NCBI RefSeq assembly: GCF_011299595.1
Contig: NZ_CP049867.1
Span: forward strand, 1,364,001 to 1,428,000
From: Nocardioides sp. HDW12B
Lineage (GTDB): Bacteria > Actinomycetota > Actinomycetes > Propionibacteriales > Nocardioidaceae
Reading direction: 5' to 3'
Length of the DNA stretch: 64,000 bases
Notes under the pieces: model-generated
Seen by the model: the letters and a program-made list of their open reading frames with translations, nothing else
The model's database searches: none
Told to the model about the DNA's origin: nothing
Part shown: piece by piece, positions 11,669 through 34,514 of the stretch
How the letters are laid out: each line of letters opens with the position of its first letter
Numbering within the stretch: position 1 is the first letter of the stretch
Translations under genes and position numbers: made by a program

Positions 11669-13600
11669 TCAGACCTCGAACGATCCGGCCTCAAGGCGCT
11701 CCTTGACCTCCGAGAGGAAGCGAGCGGCGTCGGCGCCGTCGACCAGTCGGTGGTCGTAGGTCAGGGCCAGGTAGACCATCTGGCGCACCGCGATCGTCTC
11801 GCCCAGGTTCGGGTCGGAGATCACGACGGGACGCTTGACGACGGTGCCGGTGCCCAGGATCGCGACCTGCGGCTGGTTGATGATCGGGGTGTCGAAGAGC
11901 GCGCCCCGGCTGCCGGTGTTGGTCAGCGTGAACGTGCCGCCGGACAGCTCGTCGGGTCCGATCTTGTTCGACCGGGTGCGCTCGGCCACGTCGGCGATCT
12001 TGCGCGCCAGGCCGGCCACGTTGAGGTCGCCGGCGTTCTTGATGACCGGGGTGAGCAGGCCCTTCTCGGTGTCCACCGCGACCGCGACGTTCTCGTGGTC
12101 GAAGTAGGTGACCTCGCCGGCCTCGGTGTCGATGCGCGCGTTGAGCGACGGGTGCGCCTTGAGCGCGTCGATCGCCGCCTTGGCGAAGAACGGCATGAAC
12201 GAGAGCTTCACGCCCTCGCGCGCCGCGAACTCCGCCTTGTGGGCGTCGCGCAGCCGCGAGATGTTCGTGACGTCGACCTCGACCACGGTGGTCAGCTGGG
12301 CGCTGACCTGCAGCGACTCGACCATGCGCTTGGCGATGACCTTGCGCAGCCGGCTCAGCGGCTCGGTGCGTCCGCGCAGGGGGCTGGGCTCCGGCGCCTT
12401 CGCCGAGCCCCCACCGGAGGCAGCCGGTGCGGCCGCCGCGGCCGGGGCCTCGGACGGCTTCTCGGCGCCCTTCTCGGCGGCCTTCGCCGCGTCGAGGACG
12501 TCCTGCTTGCGGATGCGACCGCCCACACCGGTGCCCTCGACGTCGCTGAGGTCGACCCCGTGCTGCTGGGCGAGCTTGCGCACCAGCGGCGTGACGTAGG
12601 CGTCGCCGTCCGAGGACGAGCGGCTCGAGCCGGACGACGAGGACCCGCCACGCTCCTGGCCGGTCTCCTGGCGCGTCACCTTCGACGGCGCCGGGGCCTT
12701 CTCGTCGGTCTTCGGCTCGCTGGCGGACTCCTTCGCGGAGGCCTTCTGCTCGTCCTTCGCCGGCTCCGGCTCGGGCTCCGGCTCCGGCTCCGGCTCCGGC
12801 TCGGGCTCCGGCTCGGGCTCCGGCTCGGGCTCGGGCTCGGGCTCGGCGTCGTCCGATCCGCTCGACGACGGCTCGCCGTCGCCGACGATCGCGAGCTCGG
12901 CACCGACCTCGACGGTCTCGTCCTCCTCGACCTTGATCTCCAGCAGGGTGCCGGCGACGGGGGAGGGGATCTCGGTGTCGACCTTGTCGGTCGAGACCTC
13001 CAGCAGGGGCTCGTCCACGGCCACGTCGTCGCCCACGGACTTCAGCCACCGGGTCACGGTGCCCTCGGTGACCGACTCGCCCAGCTCGGGCAGCACGACC
13101 GCCTGGCCGCCGCCGGAGCCGCCCTTCGAGCCGCCGCCGGACGACGCGGGCTTCTCAGCCGGCTCGTCGTCGGTGTCGTCCTCGTCGGCGCTCTCGTCCT
13201 CGGCGTCGTCGGCCTGCTCGGCCTCGTCGTCCGCGGACTCGTCGGACTCGTCGGACTCGTCGGACTCGTCGGACTCGTCGGACTCGTCGGACTCGTCGGA
13301 CTCGTCGGACTCGTCGGCGTCGGCCGAGTCGTCGGAGCCACTGTCGTCCGAACCGGCCTCGTCGGAGTCACCGATCACGGCGAGCTCGGCACCGACCTCG
13401 ACGGTCTCGTCCTCCTCGACCTTGATCTCCAGCAGGGTGCCGGCGACGGGGGAGGGGATCTCGGTGTCGACCTTGTCGGTCGAGACCTCCAGGAGGGGCT
13501 CGTCCACGGCGACCTCGTCGCCGATCGACTTCAGCCAGCGGGTCACCGTGCCCTCGGTCACGGACTCGCCCAGCTCGGGGAGGTTGACGGGAGTCGCCAT
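11669..13600 (-). CDS. sucB: 2-oxoglutarate/pyruvate dehydrogenase E2 (dihydrolipoamide acyltransferase)
   Basis: A 643-residue E2 acyltransferase of the 2-oxoacid dehydrogenase complexes. Two near-identical lipoyl domains carry the lipoate at Lys43 and Lys206 (STDKVDTE). The linkers are strikingly simple: nine DES tripeptides after the first domain and an acidic Glu-Pro run after the second. An E3/E1-binding domain follows at about residues 333-370 ([14 protein letters not shown]). The catalytic domain reaches the C-terminus with DHRLVDG at 616-622 (His617, Asp621). In actinobacteria this E2 (DlaT) can serve pyruvate dehydrogenase, so the sucB name is conventional. The ATG at 13600 begins the canonical [13 protein letters not shown]. 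Confidence 0.95.
12766..12846 (-). repeat. hexanucleotide (Glu-Pro) repeat in sucB
   Basis: Tandem ggctcc/ggctcg hexamers on the + strand, about 13 copies, encode an alternating Glu-Pro linker between lipoyl domain 2 and the E3-binding domain. The two codons for the same dipeptide are mixed, so the run is partly interrupted at DNA level. Confidence 0.85.
12892..13097 (-). repeat. lipoyl-domain duplication, second copy
   Basis: About 206 bp nearly identical to 13381-13586, offset by exactly 489 bp (163 codons). The first 110 or so bases are identical; changes cluster at the other end. It encodes lipoyl domain 2. Such near-identity suggests recent duplication or gene conversion. Confidence 0.9.
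13234..13314 (-). repeat. nine perfect 9-bp repeats (DES) in sucB
   Basis: Nine uninterrupted copies of cggactcgt on the + strand, encoding nine Asp-Glu-Ser units in the linker after lipoyl domain 1. All copies use the same codons, which suggests expansion by slippage and likely length variation between strains. Confidence 0.95.
13381..13586 (-). repeat. lipoyl-domain duplication, first copy
   Basis: Partner of 12892-13097; it encodes lipoyl domain 1 with Lys43. Confidence 0.9.
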
Positions 13601-29455: not shown

Positions 29456-29464
29456 CCCTCCCTC

Positions 29465-29574
29465 GCGAGGCGTCGGTTGTGCAGGCGCGAGGCGTCGGTT
29501 GTGCAGGCGCGAGGCGTCGGTTGTGCAGGCGCGAGGCGTCGGTTGTGCAGGCGCGAGACGTCAACAAGTGTCGC
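29465..29574. repeat. 22-bp tandem repeat array downstream of ldt
   Basis: Four perfect 22-bp units (29465-29552) begin 9 bp after the ldt stop and are followed by a decayed fifth. The unit contains gcgaggcgtcggttgtgcag. It belongs to the same family as the array at 34436-34514, 18 of 22 positions agreeing after reverse-complementing. There are no spacers between units. Confidence 0.9.
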
Positions 29575-29655
29575 CGTCTGATCCCTGACCCGCTCGATAT
29601 CCACAGATCATGGGCGTGAACCCATCGACCGAGCGGCTTGATCGACACTGCTGCG

Positions 29656-30678
29656 ATGCAGTTCGATAATCACTCGCTCGACCTGGGCCGCCTGGCCCAC
29701 GTCGGACTCGCAGACGGGCCCTTCACCCGGTACGACGCGCTCCGAGCCAGCGTCTCGCGTCACCTCCTGGATCGCTGGGTCAAGGAGGGGATCGTGCGCG
29801 TGCCGTTGCGCGGCGCCTATCTCTCCTCGGCGCTGACAGACACGGTCGAGTTGCGGGCTCGCTGCCTGGCGAAGGTGGTCGCCCCGCATGTCGTCATCGT
29901 CGATCGGACAGCGGCATGGTTGTGGGGCGTCGACACCTACGCCCTGGCTGAGCTGAAGTTCCCTCTACCCATCGACGCATTTTCCTTGCGGGGCGGTTCG
30001 CGTGTCCGTCGCGGCGGAGTTCGAGGTGGCACCAGGTCACTCTCGGTCGACGACTGGACTTGGGTCGAGGGCGTGCGCGTGTGTACGCCGCTGCGCACCG
30101 CTCTCGACCTGGCGTGCAGCTTGAGTCGCTACGAAGCCGTCGCCGCTCTGGATGCTCTGCTCCGTGCTCAGGGGATGAGCCAGGAAAGCTTGCTGCAGCA
30201 GCTGCCGCGCTTCAGAGGACGTCGGGGGGTCATCCAGGCGCGCGAGGTCGTGCGGCTCCTCGATCCTCGCGCTGAGTCCCCAGGTGAGTCCGTCACCCGC
30301 GTCGTGATCGTGGAGGAGGGACTGCCGAGCCCCGAGCTCCAGGTCTCGGTGTTCGACGAGCGTGGCAATCCGGTTTATCGGCTCGACCACGCTTACGAGG
30401 AGCTCAAGATCGGGATCGAGTACGACGGCGAGGAGCACCACACCTCAGCGGAGGACCGTCGGCACGATGCGGAACGGCGAGCGTGGCTGCGCGCCCACGG
30501 GTGGATCATCATCGTCGTCACGAAGAGCGACTTCGCCGTACACAAGCGCAGCGAATGGATCGACGCCATCCGCAGCGCTCGGTGTGAGCGTCTCGAGGAG
30601 CGGCGTGCACTTCGTGCTCGGCCGCTGCAGCGCGCTGACCGCGTGACGAGGGAGCAGCTTGGCCTGCGCTCGGCGTAA
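29656..30678 (+). CDS. orphan AbiEi-like / Vsr-fold (DUF559-type) protein
   Basis: 340 residues. The N-terminal region LASVSRHLLDRWVKEGIVRVPLRGAYLSS-like is a winged-helix AbiEi antitoxin-type domain, followed by DRTAAWLWGVD and CTPLRTALDLAC typical of this actinobacterial group. The C-terminal region ELKIGIEYDGEEHH and DAERRAWLRAHGWIIIVVTKSDF looks like a very-short-patch-repair/PD-(D/E)XK-like nuclease fold. No AbiEii toxin gene is adjacent. TTG at 29638 is an alternative start. Its stop codon lies inside the 8-bp target duplication of the mobile unit. Function unknown; codon use is less GC-rich than in neighbours. Confidence 0.75.
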   Translation: MQFDNHSLDLGRLAHVGLADGPFTRYDALRASVSRHLLDRWVKEGIVRVPLRGAYLSSALTDTVELRARCLAKVVAPHVVIVDRTAAWLWGVDTYALAELKFPLPIDAFSLRGGSRVRRGGVRGGTRSLSVDDWTWVEGVRVCTPLRTALDLACSLSRYEAVAALDALLRAQGMSQESLLQQLPRFRGRRGVIQAREVVRLLDPRAESPGESVTRVVIVEEGLPSPELQVSVFDERGNPVYRLDHAYEELKIGIEYDGEEHHTSAEDRRHDAERRAWLRAHGWIIIVVTKSDFAVHKRSEWIDAIRSARCERLEERRALRARPLQRADRVTREQLGLRSA

Positions 30679-30681
30679 AGG
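30674..30681. repeat. 8-bp target site duplication, left copy
   Basis: cgtaaagg directly before the left terminal repeat at 30682. The identical octamer follows the right outer end at 34399-34406. ISL3 elements make 8-bp duplications. Confidence 0.85.
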
Positions 30682-32120
30682 GGCTCATCCCAATCGGGGG
30701 TGTAGGAGTTGGGGTCTTAAGCCGCCGGTCTCGAGCAGGCTTCGGGCGATGTAGTTGGTCAGGTTGCGGAACCCGAGTGCGGAGCCGCGCAGGTGTTCGA
30801 GCTGTCCGTTGAGCGCCTCGGTCGGCCCGTTGCTGGTGCCGGGTCGTTCGAAGTAGGCGAGCACGTCAGCGGCTCGCTTCTTCAGGGTCCGGCCCAGGGT
30901 GGTGAGCTCGGTGAGCACCTTGGGGACGCCGGCGCTGAGGTCGGTGATCAGCTTCTCCATGAGCTCGCGGCCGCGTTGCCGGTCCTCGTGGCGATAGGCG
31001 GCGATCATGCGCTGGTAGACACCCCAGGTCGCCTCGACCTCGACGTGAGCGTCATCAACGAACAGCGCGCGTAGCCTGTCGCTCTGCTTGTCGGTGAGCA
31101 GGTCCGCGCCGGTGTGCAGCGTGCGCCGCGACTTGTAGAGCGGGTCGTCCCTGAACCCACGGTGCCCGTGGATCGCGAGTTGGACCCGGCGCCGGCACCT
31201 GTCGAGGGCGTCACCGGCCAGGCGCACGACGTGGAAGGGATCCATCACCGTGACCGCGCCCGGGACCTCCTCTGCAGCGGCGGTCTTGAACCCGGTGAAG
31301 CCGTCCATCGCGACCACCTCGACCGCGTCACGGAAGGCGTCGTCGCGGTCGGCGAGCCAGGTCTTGAACGCCGCCTTCGACCGGCCCTCGACCATGTCCA
31401 GCAGCCTTGCTGGGCCGGCGCCATCGCGGACCGGGGTGAGGTCGATGATCACGGTGACGTACTTGTCGCCACGCCTGGTGTGGCGCCAGACGTGCTCATC
31501 GACGCCAATGACCTTCACGCCCTCAAACCGCGTGGGGTCGTTGATCAGCAGCCGCTTGCCTTCAGCCAGGACCGCGTTGTTGGCGGTGTCCCACGCGACC
31601 CCGAGTCCCTCGGCGACACGGGCGACGGTGAGGTGTGCGACCACGATCCCTTCCAGCGCCCACCGCAGTCCGGTGCGCGAGAGCTTCGCGCGTGGCTCCG
31701 CCGCGGCGCTGGTGTCTTGGCGCCACACGTGTCCGCAGTCGGCACAGCGGTAGCGGCGCACTACAACTTCCAGCACGGTCGGTCGCCAGCCCAGCGGCTC
31801 GTGGGCCAACCGCCGGATCACGGTGTCACGAGCAGCGCCTTCGCTGCCGCACCGTCGGCACCACTGATCTGGTTCCACCACGCGGCACGCGAGGACTGCA
31901 CGATCCGGTTCAAGTCGTTGTCCGGTCACGCTCAGACCGAGGCCGTCGAGTCGAGCGAAGGCGGTCAGGTCAGGGCGGCCGAAGCCGGCCGGCGGGGTAG
32001 CGTCGGACACGTCGAGGTCTTTCGGATGGATGGCGTAGGAACCTCCGTCGTCGGCAGACCTCGACGTCTATCTGCGGACCGACGCGCCCGGCCGACCTAC
32101 ACCGTCATCTGAGAAGACCC
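30682..32120 (-). mobile_element. ISL3-family insertion sequence, intact
   Basis: 1439 bp with one transposase gene and imperfect terminal inverted repeats about 25 bp long (left ggctcatccc, right inverted gggtcttctc, both with ggtgtagg further in). Length suits ISL3 elements. The inner right end at 32120 is not followed by a copy of the left flanking octamer, so this IS alone does not show a target duplication. Confidence 0.85.
30685..32010 (-). CDS. ISL3 family transposase
   Basis: 441 residues, apparently complete. The N-terminal zinc ribbon has two Cys pairs (CRRCGSEG and CADCGHVW), followed by the DDE catalytic domain with KVIGVDEHVWR (first Asp), VVAMDGFTGFK and DPFHVVRLAGDALD, and C-terminal NGPTEALNGQLEHLRG with the catalytic Glu region. 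These are ISL3 (transposase_12) features. The gene fills nearly all of the element, with its stop three bases inside the left terminus. An intact frame means the element could still be active. Confidence 0.95.
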   Translation of the reverse strand: MSDATPPAGFGRPDLTAFARLDGLGLSVTGQRLEPDRAVLACRVVEPDQWCRRCGSEGAARDTVIRRLAHEPLGWRPTVLEVVVRRYRCADCGHVWRQDTSAAAEPRAKLSRTGLRWALEGIVVAHLTVARVAEGLGVAWDTANNAVLAEGKRLLINDPTRFEGVKVIGVDEHVWRHTRRGDKYVTVIIDLTPVRDGAGPARLLDMVEGRSKAAFKTWLADRDDAFRDAVEVVAMDGFTGFKTAAAEEVPGAVTVMDPFHVVRLAGDALDRCRRRVQLAIHGHRGFRDDPLYKSRRTLHTGADLLTDKQSDRLRALFVDDAHVEVEATWGVYQRMIAAYRHEDRQRGRELMEKLITDLSAGVPKVLTELTTLGRTLKKRAADVLAYFERPGTSNGPTEALNGQLEHLRGSALGFRNLTNYIARSLLETGGLRPQLLHPRLG

Positions 32121-32181
32121 CTGAAACGTCTTCGACGACGACGGGACCGGCGAGGAGGAGGGCGCGGTGAGCTAAAGGAAT

Positions 32182-32216
32182 GGAGCTTGCTCGGCTTCGA
32201 CGCCGCCGCAAGCTCC
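32182..32216. terminator. hairpin of unknown role
   Basis: Perfect arms ggagcttgc and gcaagctcc with an inner cggc/gccg stem. It lies 62 bp outside the intact IS, and no gene ends right next to it. Confidence 0.4.
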
Positions 32217-32348
32217 GGTGAAACGGTCGGTACTGGTCGGTCGTCGTCGGTCGCCACCGGATGGCGGCGTCCCCCACGCTCGGCGTTTGCGCAGGTCAGC
32301 GGCTCGTTCGCCCAGTGGGCGCATCAAGCGATAGACGCAAAGCCGACG

Positions 32349-32385
32349 TGATTAGGTCGTCGCTTCGATTCCGACAGGCGGCTCC
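32349..32385 (+). other. tRNA-Thr 3' end fragment (probable old attachment site)
   Basis: The stretch from taggtcgtcg through ttcgattccgac to aggcggctcc reproduces the variable loop, T arm and 3' acceptor strand of actinobacterial tRNA-Thr starting GCCGCCT. One T-stem pair is broken (g to c) and CCA reads ccg. The 5' half of the tRNA is absent. Integrases leave such 3' fragments as att sites. Confidence 0.6.
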
Positions 32386-32394
32386 GGCGAACAG

Positions 32395-32424
32395 CCCCTG
32401 ACCTGCGGAAACGCAGGGCAGGGG
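32395..32424 (+). terminator. strong hairpin downstream of the tRNA fragment
   Basis: Arms cccctgacctgcg and cgcagggcagggg pair with one A-G mismatch around a gaaa loop. Its position ten bases after the tRNA fragment suggests it is the former tRNA terminator carried along with it. Confidence 0.7.
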
Positions 32425-32642
32425 CGGTTCGGTTCTGGTGGTCGCGCGATGCGCTGGCCTCACGGCTCTGCCCGACACCGACGTCGCTCTCCTCTGCGAC
32501 GGACCCCTCGCCGGCTGAGCGCTCGCGGCCGGCATCCTGTCCGCGTGCCGATAGGCCTCGCACCGCTCGGCAACGCAGCGTGGCGTTGCGTCGCGACCCG
32601 GCGACGGCTCGGCGGGGCGCGATCGTCTCGTGCGTTGGCGGA

Positions 32643-32954
32643 CTACGGGAGCTTGGACGCGAGGACGTCGGCCGCCAGGATCTCGGGTGCTGCGCCGAGG
32701 AGGTGCTGGTTGGCCATCAGGGCTGCGACGATGGCGCCGTTGGCGTGGGCGTCGCGAGCGGCCTCGTCGGGGAATGCATCGAAGATCCAGAAGGTGTCGG
32801 CGTGGGTCCTGACCGCGAACCAGACAATCGTTCCTACTTCTTCGTTGGCGAGCGCGACAGCGCCGGCGAGCAGATCGGCGAGCGCGTCGTGCTGTCCATC
32901 GGCCGCGACGATCTTGGCGACGAAGGCATACGGAAGTGATGCGGGTGCGGACAT
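32643..32954 (-). CDS. putative quinol/antibiotic biosynthesis monooxygenase (ABM, YgiN-like)
   Basis: 103 residues with the ABM dimeric ferredoxin-like fold pattern: YAFVAKIVAADGQHDALADLLAGAVALANEEVGTIVWFAV, then DTFWIFDAFPDEAARDAHANG and a C-terminal strand. These small enzymes oxidise quinols or aromatic compounds without cofactors, or help detoxify reactive carbonyl and quinone compounds. A good ribosome-binding site (aggagaa, seven bases upstream) supports the ATG at 32954. It is divergent from the GlxA-like regulator, the likely controller. It is cargo of the composite element. Confidence 0.85.
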   Translation of the reverse strand: MSAPASLPYAFVAKIVAADGQHDALADLLAGAVALANEEVGTIVWFAVRTHADTFWIFDAFPDEAARDAHANGAIVAALMANQHLLGAAPEILAADVLASKLP

Positions 32955-33062
32955 GAGGGGTTCTCCTAGGTGTCGAGGTTTCTTGGTGAAGCGAGTTCAG
33001 CGTATGACGGGCAAGGGCAGGCGAGAAGTGGCGTATACGGCAGTATTGCTATTGTTCGCGCC
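32955..33062. promoter_or_regulatory. shared divergent promoter, monooxygenase/regulator
   Basis: 108 bp between divergent starts. It is AT-richer than its surroundings near 33030-33060 (gtatacggcagtattgctat), a plausible regulator binding and promoter region. Confidence 0.45.
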
Positions 33063-34004
33063 ATGCGTATCGGACTGATCGCGATCGACGGCTGCTTCGG
33101 TTCGGCTGTCGCGTCGGTCATCGACATCGTGCGGGTGGCCGACGGAGCCCGCGGCGATGTCGACCCGCGGATCGACCCGATCGAACTCGCCATCCTCGGA
33201 CCGAAACGGAGTGTGACCACGACGGCATCGATGACCCTGTCGGTGGACCACCCGCTGTCGGAGTCCGCAGAGTTCGACGTGGTCGTCGTCCCTGCGCTTG
33301 GAACCCTCACGGCCGCCGCTACCAACGACGCCCTCCAGAGCCGAGATGCTCGTTCGGTTATCGCCTCGCTCGGGCGCCTCGACGACGCGACCACCCGGAT
33401 CGCCGCGGCGTGCACCGGCGTGTTCGCTGTCGCCGAGACCGGACGGATGCATCATCGGCGGGCGACGACCAGCTGGTTCCTGGGGCCGGAGTTCCTGAAG
33501 CGCTATCCGACCGTCGCCCTCGATCTCGACACCATGGTCGTGGTCGACGGGAACCTCGTCACCGCCGGCGCCGCGTTCGCCCACATCGACCTCGCGCTCT
33601 CACTCGTGCGATCGATCAGCCCCGACCTGGCCCAACATGTCGCCAAGCTCCTCATCATCGACGAGCGTCCGTCGCAGGCGGCCTTCGTCGCCTACGAACA
33701 TCTCCGGCACGAGGACCCGATCGTCGTCGAGTTCGAACGCTTCGTGCGCGCCCGCCTGGACGAACCGTTCAACGTCGCCTTCGCCGCGCAGTCGCTCGGC
33801 ACCAGCCGGCGCACCCTCGAACGACGAGTCCGTGCGGCGCTCAACCTCACTCCGCTCGGCTTCGTCCAACGGCTTCGCATCGAACGAGCTCGGCACCTCT
33901 CAGCAACCACGGACCTCACCTCCGCCGAGATCGCGCTACGGGTCGGCTACGCGAACGCCGAGACTCTGCGCTCCCTCCTGCGTAGGGAGCGACGCCGTTC
34001 CTGA
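33063..34004 (+). CDS. GlxA-like AraC family transcriptional regulator
   Basis: 313 residues. The N-terminal DJ-1/PfpI-like domain (about residues 1-190) has AACTGVFAVAETG, the nucleophile-elbow region of GlxA regulators, with the cysteine kept. The C-terminal AraC-type double helix-turn-helix begins near 215 (RLDEPFNVAFAAQSLGTSRRTLERRVRAAL) and includes ALRVGYANAETLRSLLRR. The protein ends just after the second recognition helix, about ten residues earlier than usual, so the extreme C-terminus may be cut. It probably controls the divergent monooxygenase gene. Confidence 0.85.
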   Translation: MRIGLIAIDGCFGSAVASVIDIVRVADGARGDVDPRIDPIELAILGPKRSVTTTASMTLSVDHPLSESAEFDVVVVPALGTLTAAATNDALQSRDARSVIASLGRLDDATTRIAAACTGVFAVAETGRMHHRRATTSWFLGPEFLKRYPTVALDLDTMVVVDGNLVTAGAAFAHIDLALSLVRSISPDLAQHVAKLLIIDERPSQAAFVAYEHLRHEDPIVVEFERFVRARLDEPFNVAFAAQSLGTSRRTLERRVRAALNLTPLGFVQRLRIERARHLSATTDLTSAEIALRVGYANAETLRSLLRRERRRS

Positions 34005-34232
34005 CCTATCGCCATGCCTGTAGCCGGTGTCCTAGTGCTCGACTGGAACCACCTCTCAGCACGTCGCGTCGACGCTCCTGCGTCGCCCCTGGACGACCCA
34101 CTCGACACGCCCGCAGCACAGGCCATGTGACGTGTCCCGGCTTCCCGGACGGTCGGGGTTGGGTGGCTGTGATGTCGCTGCGTTCTCGTCGAGGGGGTCA
34201 GCAGACTCGATCAGGGTCGATTGGGATGAGAC

Positions 34233-34398
34233 GCGAAGGCGGTCAGGTCAGGGCGGCCGAAGCCGGCCGGCGGGGTAGCGTCGGTCACGTCGAGGTCTTT
34301 CGGATGGATGGCGTAGGAACCTCCATCGTCGGGAGACCTCGACGTCTACCTGCGGACCGACGCGCCCGGCCGACCTACACCCTCATCTGGGAAGAGCC
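34233..34398. mobile_element. ISL3 right-end remnant
   Basis: 166 bp aligning without gaps to 31955-32120 with seven differences. It includes the first 56 bp of the transposase coding sequence and the terminal inverted repeat. It forms the right outer end of the composite unit. Confidence 0.9.
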
Positions 34399-34406
34399 CG
34401 TAAAGG
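34399..34406. repeat. 8-bp target site duplication, right copy
   Basis: cgtaaagg, identical to 30674-30681. Confidence 0.85.
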
Positions 34407-34435: not shown

Positions 34436-34514
34436 ACTGGCGTCTCGCGCCTGCAGAACTGGCGTCTCGGACCTGCAGAAGTGGCGTCTGGCGCCTGCAG
34501 AACTGGCGTCTCGT
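34436..34514. repeat. 22-bp tandem repeat array downstream of qcrB
   Basis: Three 22-bp units (starts 34436, 34458, 34480) and a partial fourth. The unit contains actggcgtctcgcgcctgca, with small differences between units. Read on the - strand, downstream of qcrB, it is the same repeat, in the same sense, as the array downstream of ldt. Confidence 0.88.

Follow-up and report, generated by a model that had tools for sequence, protein, structure and literature searches.

How did a transposase gene, two genes of another kind and a detached insertion-sequence end come to lie together between two copies of a single octamer? The question is raised by positions 30682 to 34398 (3717 bp) of a 64,000-nucleotide stretch of Nocardioides sp. 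HDW12B (contig NZ_CP049867.1, positions 1,364,001 to 1,428,000; hereafter the window). Our answer, held with high confidence, is that this unit is a fixed ISL3-family transposon with passengers, that is, a transporter insertion sequence, composed of one insertion sequence (IS), two passenger genes and a solo right end. The left terminal repeat (GGCTCATCCCAATCGGGGGTGTAGG, 30682 to 30706, forward strand) opens an ISPfr2-like ISL3 element of 1439 bp (30682 to 32120), which is also found elsewhere as a solo element with exact 8-bp duplications. It encodes on the reverse strand an ISL3 transposase of 441 residues in an intact open reading frame (ORF; 30685 to 32010) that scores far above the family cut-offs of both PF01610 (1.7e-55; 188.9 bits, cut-off 23) and NF033550 (2.6e-108; 362 bits, cut-off 180); plasmid records label the unit's transposase "ISL3-like element ISPfr2 family". 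The IS closes with an altered inner right end without a duplication (32096 to 32120, reverse strand), beginning GGGTCTTCTCAG in place of GGCTCTTCCCAG. It is followed by a cargo region (32121 to 34232) and by the solo right end (34233 to 34398), a 166-bp piece from the end of a second IS copy; this piece matches the right end of the IS at about 96% identity and has a canonical right terminus (34374 to 34398).

The octamer CGTAAAGG lies directly outside both ends of the unit (30674 to 30681 and 34399 to 34406), where the original prediction had placed it, and these are its sole two exact occurrences on both strands of the window, against an expected count of 0.22; at least two occurrences were obtained in 1 of 100 shuffles. 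Past the inner right end of the IS stands CTGAAACG with 3 mismatches to the left octamer, so the IS's own ends have no matching octamer, as had also been stated. A by-eye count over 25 bases gives agreement at 20 positions for the outer pair of ends and at 17 for the inner pair, the same figures as before. Such imperfect terminal inverted repeats are an ISL3 trait, and an 8-bp duplication is typical of the family. The left octamer contains the stop codon TAA (30676 to 30678) of an AbiEi-like gene, and the insertion was correctly predicted to have fallen on this codon and kept it. In the mechanism that we propose, the ISPfr2-like IS would supply the transposase and the left end, the 166-bp remnant of a former second, direct-repeat IS copy would supply the right end, and the transposase would pair these outer ends and move the whole 3.7 kb, with each insertion producing an 8-bp duplication that prefers A/T at positions 4 and 5.

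Copies of the unit occur elsewhere. When genome contigs were scanned for the transposase, the best 80 of 553 relatives fell at 79 distinct loci. Together with the window copy, these include 51 loci with an IS of more than 95% DNA identity, namely 24 complete units, 7 complete solo copies and 20 others, the last excluded from the duplication count as their ends are missing or truncated. Among the matches listed, 22 of the 24 complete units, the window's included, have an exact 8-bp duplication at their outer ends, and the 22 octamers are all different. By record titles, the 21 duplicated units other than the window's come from 17 genera (Dietzia, Serinicoccus, Nocardiopsis, Gordonia, Brachybacterium, Hoyosella, Pseudarthrobacter, Brevibacterium, Arthrobacter, Microbacterium, Nostocoides, Nocardioides, Mycetocola, Agrococcus, Nesterenkonia, Pseudonocardia and Cryobacterium), to which the window's host is added. 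In the plasmid database PLSDB, 25 records matched, 15 of them over at least 80% of the unit; both outer ends are present in 12 of the 15 examined, with exact duplications in 4, two of these coming from separate plasmids of a single Tsukamurella strain. Other copies of the whole 3.7-kb unit, proposed as a check, do exist by these counts (22/24 and 4/12), which equally support a last jump in which the left end came from the IS and the right end was the solo one. The cargo had been taken for neighbouring host genes mobilised at this place, which is not borne out, as it is a fixed passenger in the 17 named genera among the matches listed.

Three other candidates were looked at and set aside. In locus L142, CGTAAAGG follows the right end, but the left octamer differs and the flank matches the window at best with E 0.003 over 20 bases, which we take as coincidence. 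Locus L146 (G001:C13) combines a 78% identical IS with a right-end fragment about 10 kb away, and the IS proved to be a solo copy with its own duplication. No duplication was found at L098, where a related IS abuts the cargo.

The same octamers bear on whether the duplication could be accidental. Across the 26 duplicated octamers of units and plasmid copies, the frequency of A/T is 0.92 and 0.96 at positions 4 and 5, and two octamers drawn from this A/T-centred profile would match with a probability of about 2.3e-4. Chance is thus an unlikely source of the duplication even for the window copy alone, and on this value and the shuffle counts a chance octamer was rejected. A history of two independent IS insertions, with octamers matching by chance and later deletions, gains something from the A/T preference, which raises the probability of a match to the value just given; the exact matches counted above (22/24 units, 4/12 plasmid copies) far exceed it, shifting the octamers of the relatives by 30, 60 and 90 bp produced no match at all, and we find this history hardly credible. 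Only slightly better placed, and still very improbable, is a lone IS that inserted with a duplication and later acquired the cargo when an IS-cargo circle recombined homologously into it. Such an acquisition would yield an identical outer duplication at one site, and solo and unit forms do seem to exchange their IS, since the 1273 bp of L085's IS used in the IS tree are the same as in solo copies of that genome. The event would, however, have to have happened anew at 22 sites, each with its own octamer, and the window's genome contains one full copy of the unit and no other.

If the whole unit moves as one, the fate of the inner right end becomes of interest. Among the matches listed, this end is retained in 16 of the 24 units and deleted in the other 8, which are about 3.2 kb long. 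A C-to-G change at its third base is common to 14 of the 16, most of them with more changes, and in none of the 16 does the octamer after the inner end match the left flank. Decay of the inner end by substitution or deletion would lock the IS to the cargo, and by this route a former IS-cargo-IS composite would have become a fixed transposon. One could instead think of a conventional composite that is still splitting, with the IS also leaving alone through its inner end. Solo 1439-bp copies with exact 8-bp duplications do exist (4 of the 7 complete ones listed), and the inner end is still canonical in L067 and L085; on the other hand, the GGGTC inner-type end occurs in 0 of the 7 solo copies listed (L045 differs at the first base), and 22 of the 24 units have an altered or deleted inner end. 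A composite still in the act of splitting is accordingly improbable, although less so than the two histories above.

A phylogenetic tree of the IS copies has low resolution, with 9 of its 57 inner branches starred and the window copy present twice (as L001 and L017), and it was relied on solely for L085 and for what we call type-B copies, in which the cargo from position 216 onward follows a canonical inner end. Support is found for a group that joins four of the five type-B copies with solo copies, the fifth being L088. This grouping and the identity of L085 with the solo copies of its own genome suggest that new solo copies of the IS may take the unit's place or re-arm it. The copies as a whole display the states expected as an IS-flanked segment becomes a locked gene-carrying transposon, with canonical, altered and deleted inner ends, and re-arming by fresh solo copies is likely among them.

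A close examination of the solo end provides a hint on its origin. An inverted left-terminus remnant of 13 bp (34218 to 34230, reverse strand) ends 2 bp short of it in the window, and in locus L155 (5396 to 5410) an exact 15-bp inverted left terminus abuts it. This relic suggests that the solo end was born at a junction made by the transposase. The solo end would derive from one of two full IS copies that once flanked the cargo; the label "composite" originally given to the element suits such an origin and does not suit the present form, in which the second copy amounts to 166 bp. The transposon is probably autonomous, and its transposase would still be active today.

Several observations weigh against the fixed transposon as we describe it. 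Two of the 24 units, L067 and L071, have no duplication, nor do 8 of the 12 plasmid units, all on Rhodococcus plasmids. Among the plasmid loci, L152, L153 and L159 have a common right-flank octamer, and the left octamer of L152 differs; recombination between copies would explain such cases. The canonical inner ends of L067 and L085 mean that the lock is not universal. As to the origin from two IS copies, two full copies in direct orientation were found in none of the genome or plasmid rows examined, and the nearly complete second copy present in L148 and in L151 is inverted. Finally, the expected empty site could be recovered in part. Among four other genomes of the host genus (G001, G002, G003 and G004), three (G001, G003 and G004) have the AbiEi-like homologue beside qcrB without an insert, with 116 to 215 bp separating the protein matches, and in G004 the homologue is interrupted by stops; no close AbiEi-like homologue was found in G002 (best E 1.1e-10). 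The gene pair without the insert is there and speaks for an insertion in the window, but these congeneric sites are too diverged for a single octamer to be read.

The cargo contains two divergently oriented genes. The first (32643 to 32954, reverse strand) encodes a 103-residue protein of the ABM fold (antibiotic biosynthesis monooxygenase type), assigned from PF03992 (E 0.001, below its cut-off), from PDB entry 2pd1 (3.7e-23) and from plasmid-record annotation. The second (33063 to 34004, forward strand; start according to plasmid-record annotation) encodes a transcription regulator of the DJ-1/PfpI-AraC type (PF01965, PF12833). Counting full-length rows of at least 94% identity only, the ABM gene is intact in 43 of 43 copies and the regulator gene in 40 of 40, compared with 41 of 46 for the transposase gene, and the ratios of nonsynonymous to synonymous polymorphism (pN/pS) are 0.21, 0.24 and 0.57, respectively, from crude counts. 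Partial hits are absent for the ABM gene and number four for the regulator gene, each ending at a locus or contig end. These values suggest that the passengers are under stronger constraint than the transposase and that the cargo pays its way. The ABM fold, the local divergent regulator and the kinds of passenger in the relatives described below point weakly to a small detoxification or sensing module as the likely role of the pair. Beside the unit on a Dietzia plasmid (L157:5360-6380), the annotation gives a second ABM gene, a type 1 glutamine amidotransferase-like gene and a formaldehyde dehydrogenase, neighbours that hint at an aldehyde or electrophile theme.

Further features of the cargo bear on its history. 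A 37-bp piece (32349 to 32385, forward strand) is 95% identical to the 3' end of the host genome's own tRNA-Thr(CGT) gene, and this relic is perhaps the attachment site of an integrative element. Between cargo positions 481 and 482 (32601/32602), five copies that were read have 359 to 364 bp that are absent from the window, and in a sixth, L085, this stretch holds a further insertion. In a sample of 396 genomes of the phylum, the transposase was found in 7 and the cargo in 6, the window's genome included in both counts, four of the six being diverged homologues at 68 to 89%. Three genomes that do not belong to the class (G117, G251 and G262) have the cargo core at 81 to 89% identity and no IS match with it, likely the kind of source from which the cargo came. 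Such an IS-free core outside the class is seen at L139, L140 and L141, and a mycothiol-S-transferase type gene adjoins it in L141.

The target site has a story of its own. The gene on whose stop codon the unit landed (29638 to 30678, forward strand) combines an AbiEi-type helix-turn-helix with a Vsr/DUF559-like nuclease domain, whose residues D250 (30/33), E261 (33/33), D263 (31/33), H268 (33/33) and D277 (33/33) are kept among homologues. It is accompanied by a left array of 22-bp repeats (29457 to 29567, forward strand) and by a right array (34436 to 34502, forward strand) that is inverted relative to the left one and from which the transposon now separates the gene. The left flank, aligned with the reverse-complemented right flank on the far side of the transposon, scores 67, the best of 50 shuffles being 29. 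In a test set of 29 homologue loci (L168 to L196, fetched from 34 matches outside the window's genome), a tandem array lies within 700 bp of the gene in 21 and on both sides in 13. With the four loci that gave the idea (L017, L018, L019 and L022, chosen after their arrays had been seen), the counts are 25 and 16 of 33, against 5 and 0 of 150 random places; L020 and L023, close homologues without an array, stand outside this set. Inverted similarity of the flanks was compared between 32 close loci, 15 distant paralogues and 200 random places: it exceeds all 50 shuffles at 29, 8 and 12 of them and reaches a score of at least 60 at 19, 4 and 0, respectively, L020 and L021 being left out of these comparison sets.

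In the four genomes tested, the repeat beside the gene is scattered over its own genome, less so in the window's, and is rare in most others. Counted genome-wide with one unit per genome, up to 3 mismatches and the reversed pattern as control, the window's repeat unit occurs 19 times in its own genome (control 2), 4 of these in the gene's array, and 0 to 2 times in the four congeners. The unit of G001 occurs 269 times in G001 (control 6) and 1 to 4 times in the other four (controls there 3 to 15), and that of G003 110 times in G003 (control 0) and 0 to 1 times elsewhere. The unit of G414, whose copies often form close head-to-head pairs, occurs 91 times in G414 (control 0), 37 in G575, 4 in G522 and 0 to 1 in five others; the specificity is not absolute, because G575 and G522, which have close homologues of the gene, hold kindred repeats. 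By analogy with systems of repetitive extragenic palindromic sequences and their associated tyrosine transposases (REP/RAYT, or REPtrons), we give an even chance to a nuclease-repeat system that would spread or police its own repeats in Actinomycetes, with a PD-(D/E)XK-type nuclease replacing the tyrosine transposase. A plainer reading would see operators or terminators in the arrays, the dispersed repeats being older. REPtrons, according to the part of PMC3733652 available, are the nearest known arrangement, similar in their repeat-bracketed layout and different in having a tyrosine transposase where this locus has a nuclease. No paper on AbiEi, DUF559 and repeats together was found in the open-licence literature, and none among the literature matches listed joins DUF559 or AbiEi with REP hairpin elements (REPINs); one of them, PMC8934634, contains AbiEi and a word beginning "rayt". 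If the link between nuclease and repeats is true, the target-site finding could outweigh the transposon in importance. Two further tandem arrays, of 18-bp period, are present in the window at 12753 to 12851 and 13222 to 13337.

Whether the 3.7-kb transposon is exceptional in its family can be judged from its more distant relatives. Exact octamers bound 15 of the 37 elements examined (39 less L093 and L100), and octamers shifted by 30, 60 and 90 bp gave 0 matches. Seven of the 15 are longer and carry other cargo of six kinds, with transposases at 80 to 82% identity: L094 and L095 (2976 bp), L104 (2318 bp), L107 (3703 bp), L112 (2974 bp), L118 (3839 bp) and L120 (3354 bp). The remainder comprises L096, with a second IS relative, and seven plain IS elements, L105 being an eighth under a looser rule. 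Pfam searches on the ORFs of six of the seven longer elements (L094 has the same size and ORF coordinates as L095) identified two SMR efflux proteins and a TetR-like protein in L095, TetR and SDR proteins in L107, proteins of the F420H2 quinone reductase type, SDR and TetR in L118, an alpha/beta hydrolase and an AraC protein in L120 and a methyltransferase type in L112; the ORFs of L104 gave no Pfam match. Because these seven octamer-bounded relatives hold other cargo, passenger carriage is recurrent in this IS clade. The view that mobilisation of passengers is unusual for ISL3 elements has to be given up on these seven and on the published examples ISPst2 and ISPpu12. The clade carries several small regulator-plus-enzyme or efflux modules in Actinomycetes, and gene carriers would therefore escape surveys in which ISL3 elements are scored as plain IS.

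Among known systems, one-ended mobilisation of the ISEcp1 type is marked by a right boundary that varies between events. Here the identical solo end bounds all 24 units (with a small insertion in L052), that end having been the criterion by which they were selected. A class I composite has two IS copies flanking the cargo, and the second copy here is only the 166-bp end. Tn14751 of Corynebacterium, to go by a title, reportedly carries 17.4 kb of host chromosome. As far as the available part of PMC1590026 goes, it resembles our unit as an actinobacterial composite transposon with IS31831, an element linked with ISL3-type sequences, and with A/T-rich targets, and differs in that its cargo is a segment of the host chromosome. 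The iron-uptake region between ISAar39 and ISAar42, likewise actinobacterial, ISL3-flanked and proposed as a composite transposon in the part of PMC6579920 available, has two different ISL3 elements at its ends, unlike the unit. ISPpu12, like the unit, is an ISL3 element with passengers. ISPpu12a is a 3372-bp element with a CzcD gene (PMC4447125, in part), and two almost identical copies of ISPpu12 flank the DEH transposon (PMC12060670, in part), where the unit has one IS and a 166-bp end. The likeness to ISPfr2 of Propionibacterium freudenreichii lies in the family name given in plasmid records, and the available parts of PMC2909200 and PMC6579920 describe no passenger-carrying form of it. 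No description of the 3.7-kb unit, and no paper combining ABM, ISL3 and AraC, was found in the open-licence literature. ISPst2, in the part of PMC6305408 available, is an ISL3 element with two passengers (a permease and an ArsR-type regulator), terminal repeats and 8-bp direct repeats; ISArsp7 is also given there with an 8-bp duplication. ISPst2 and the unit agree in the ISL3 transposase, the two passengers and the 8-bp repeats, and differ in the kind of passengers and in the solo end and decayed inner end, neither of which that part of the source mentions for ISPst2. The available part of PMC9330008, which also names ISEcp1, describes a transporter IS (tIS) as an IS derivative whose passenger genes move with it as a unit, and the ABM and regulator genes do lie inside the outer-end duplications. 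The unit belongs, in this respect, to an already known kind, the ISL3 elements with passengers.

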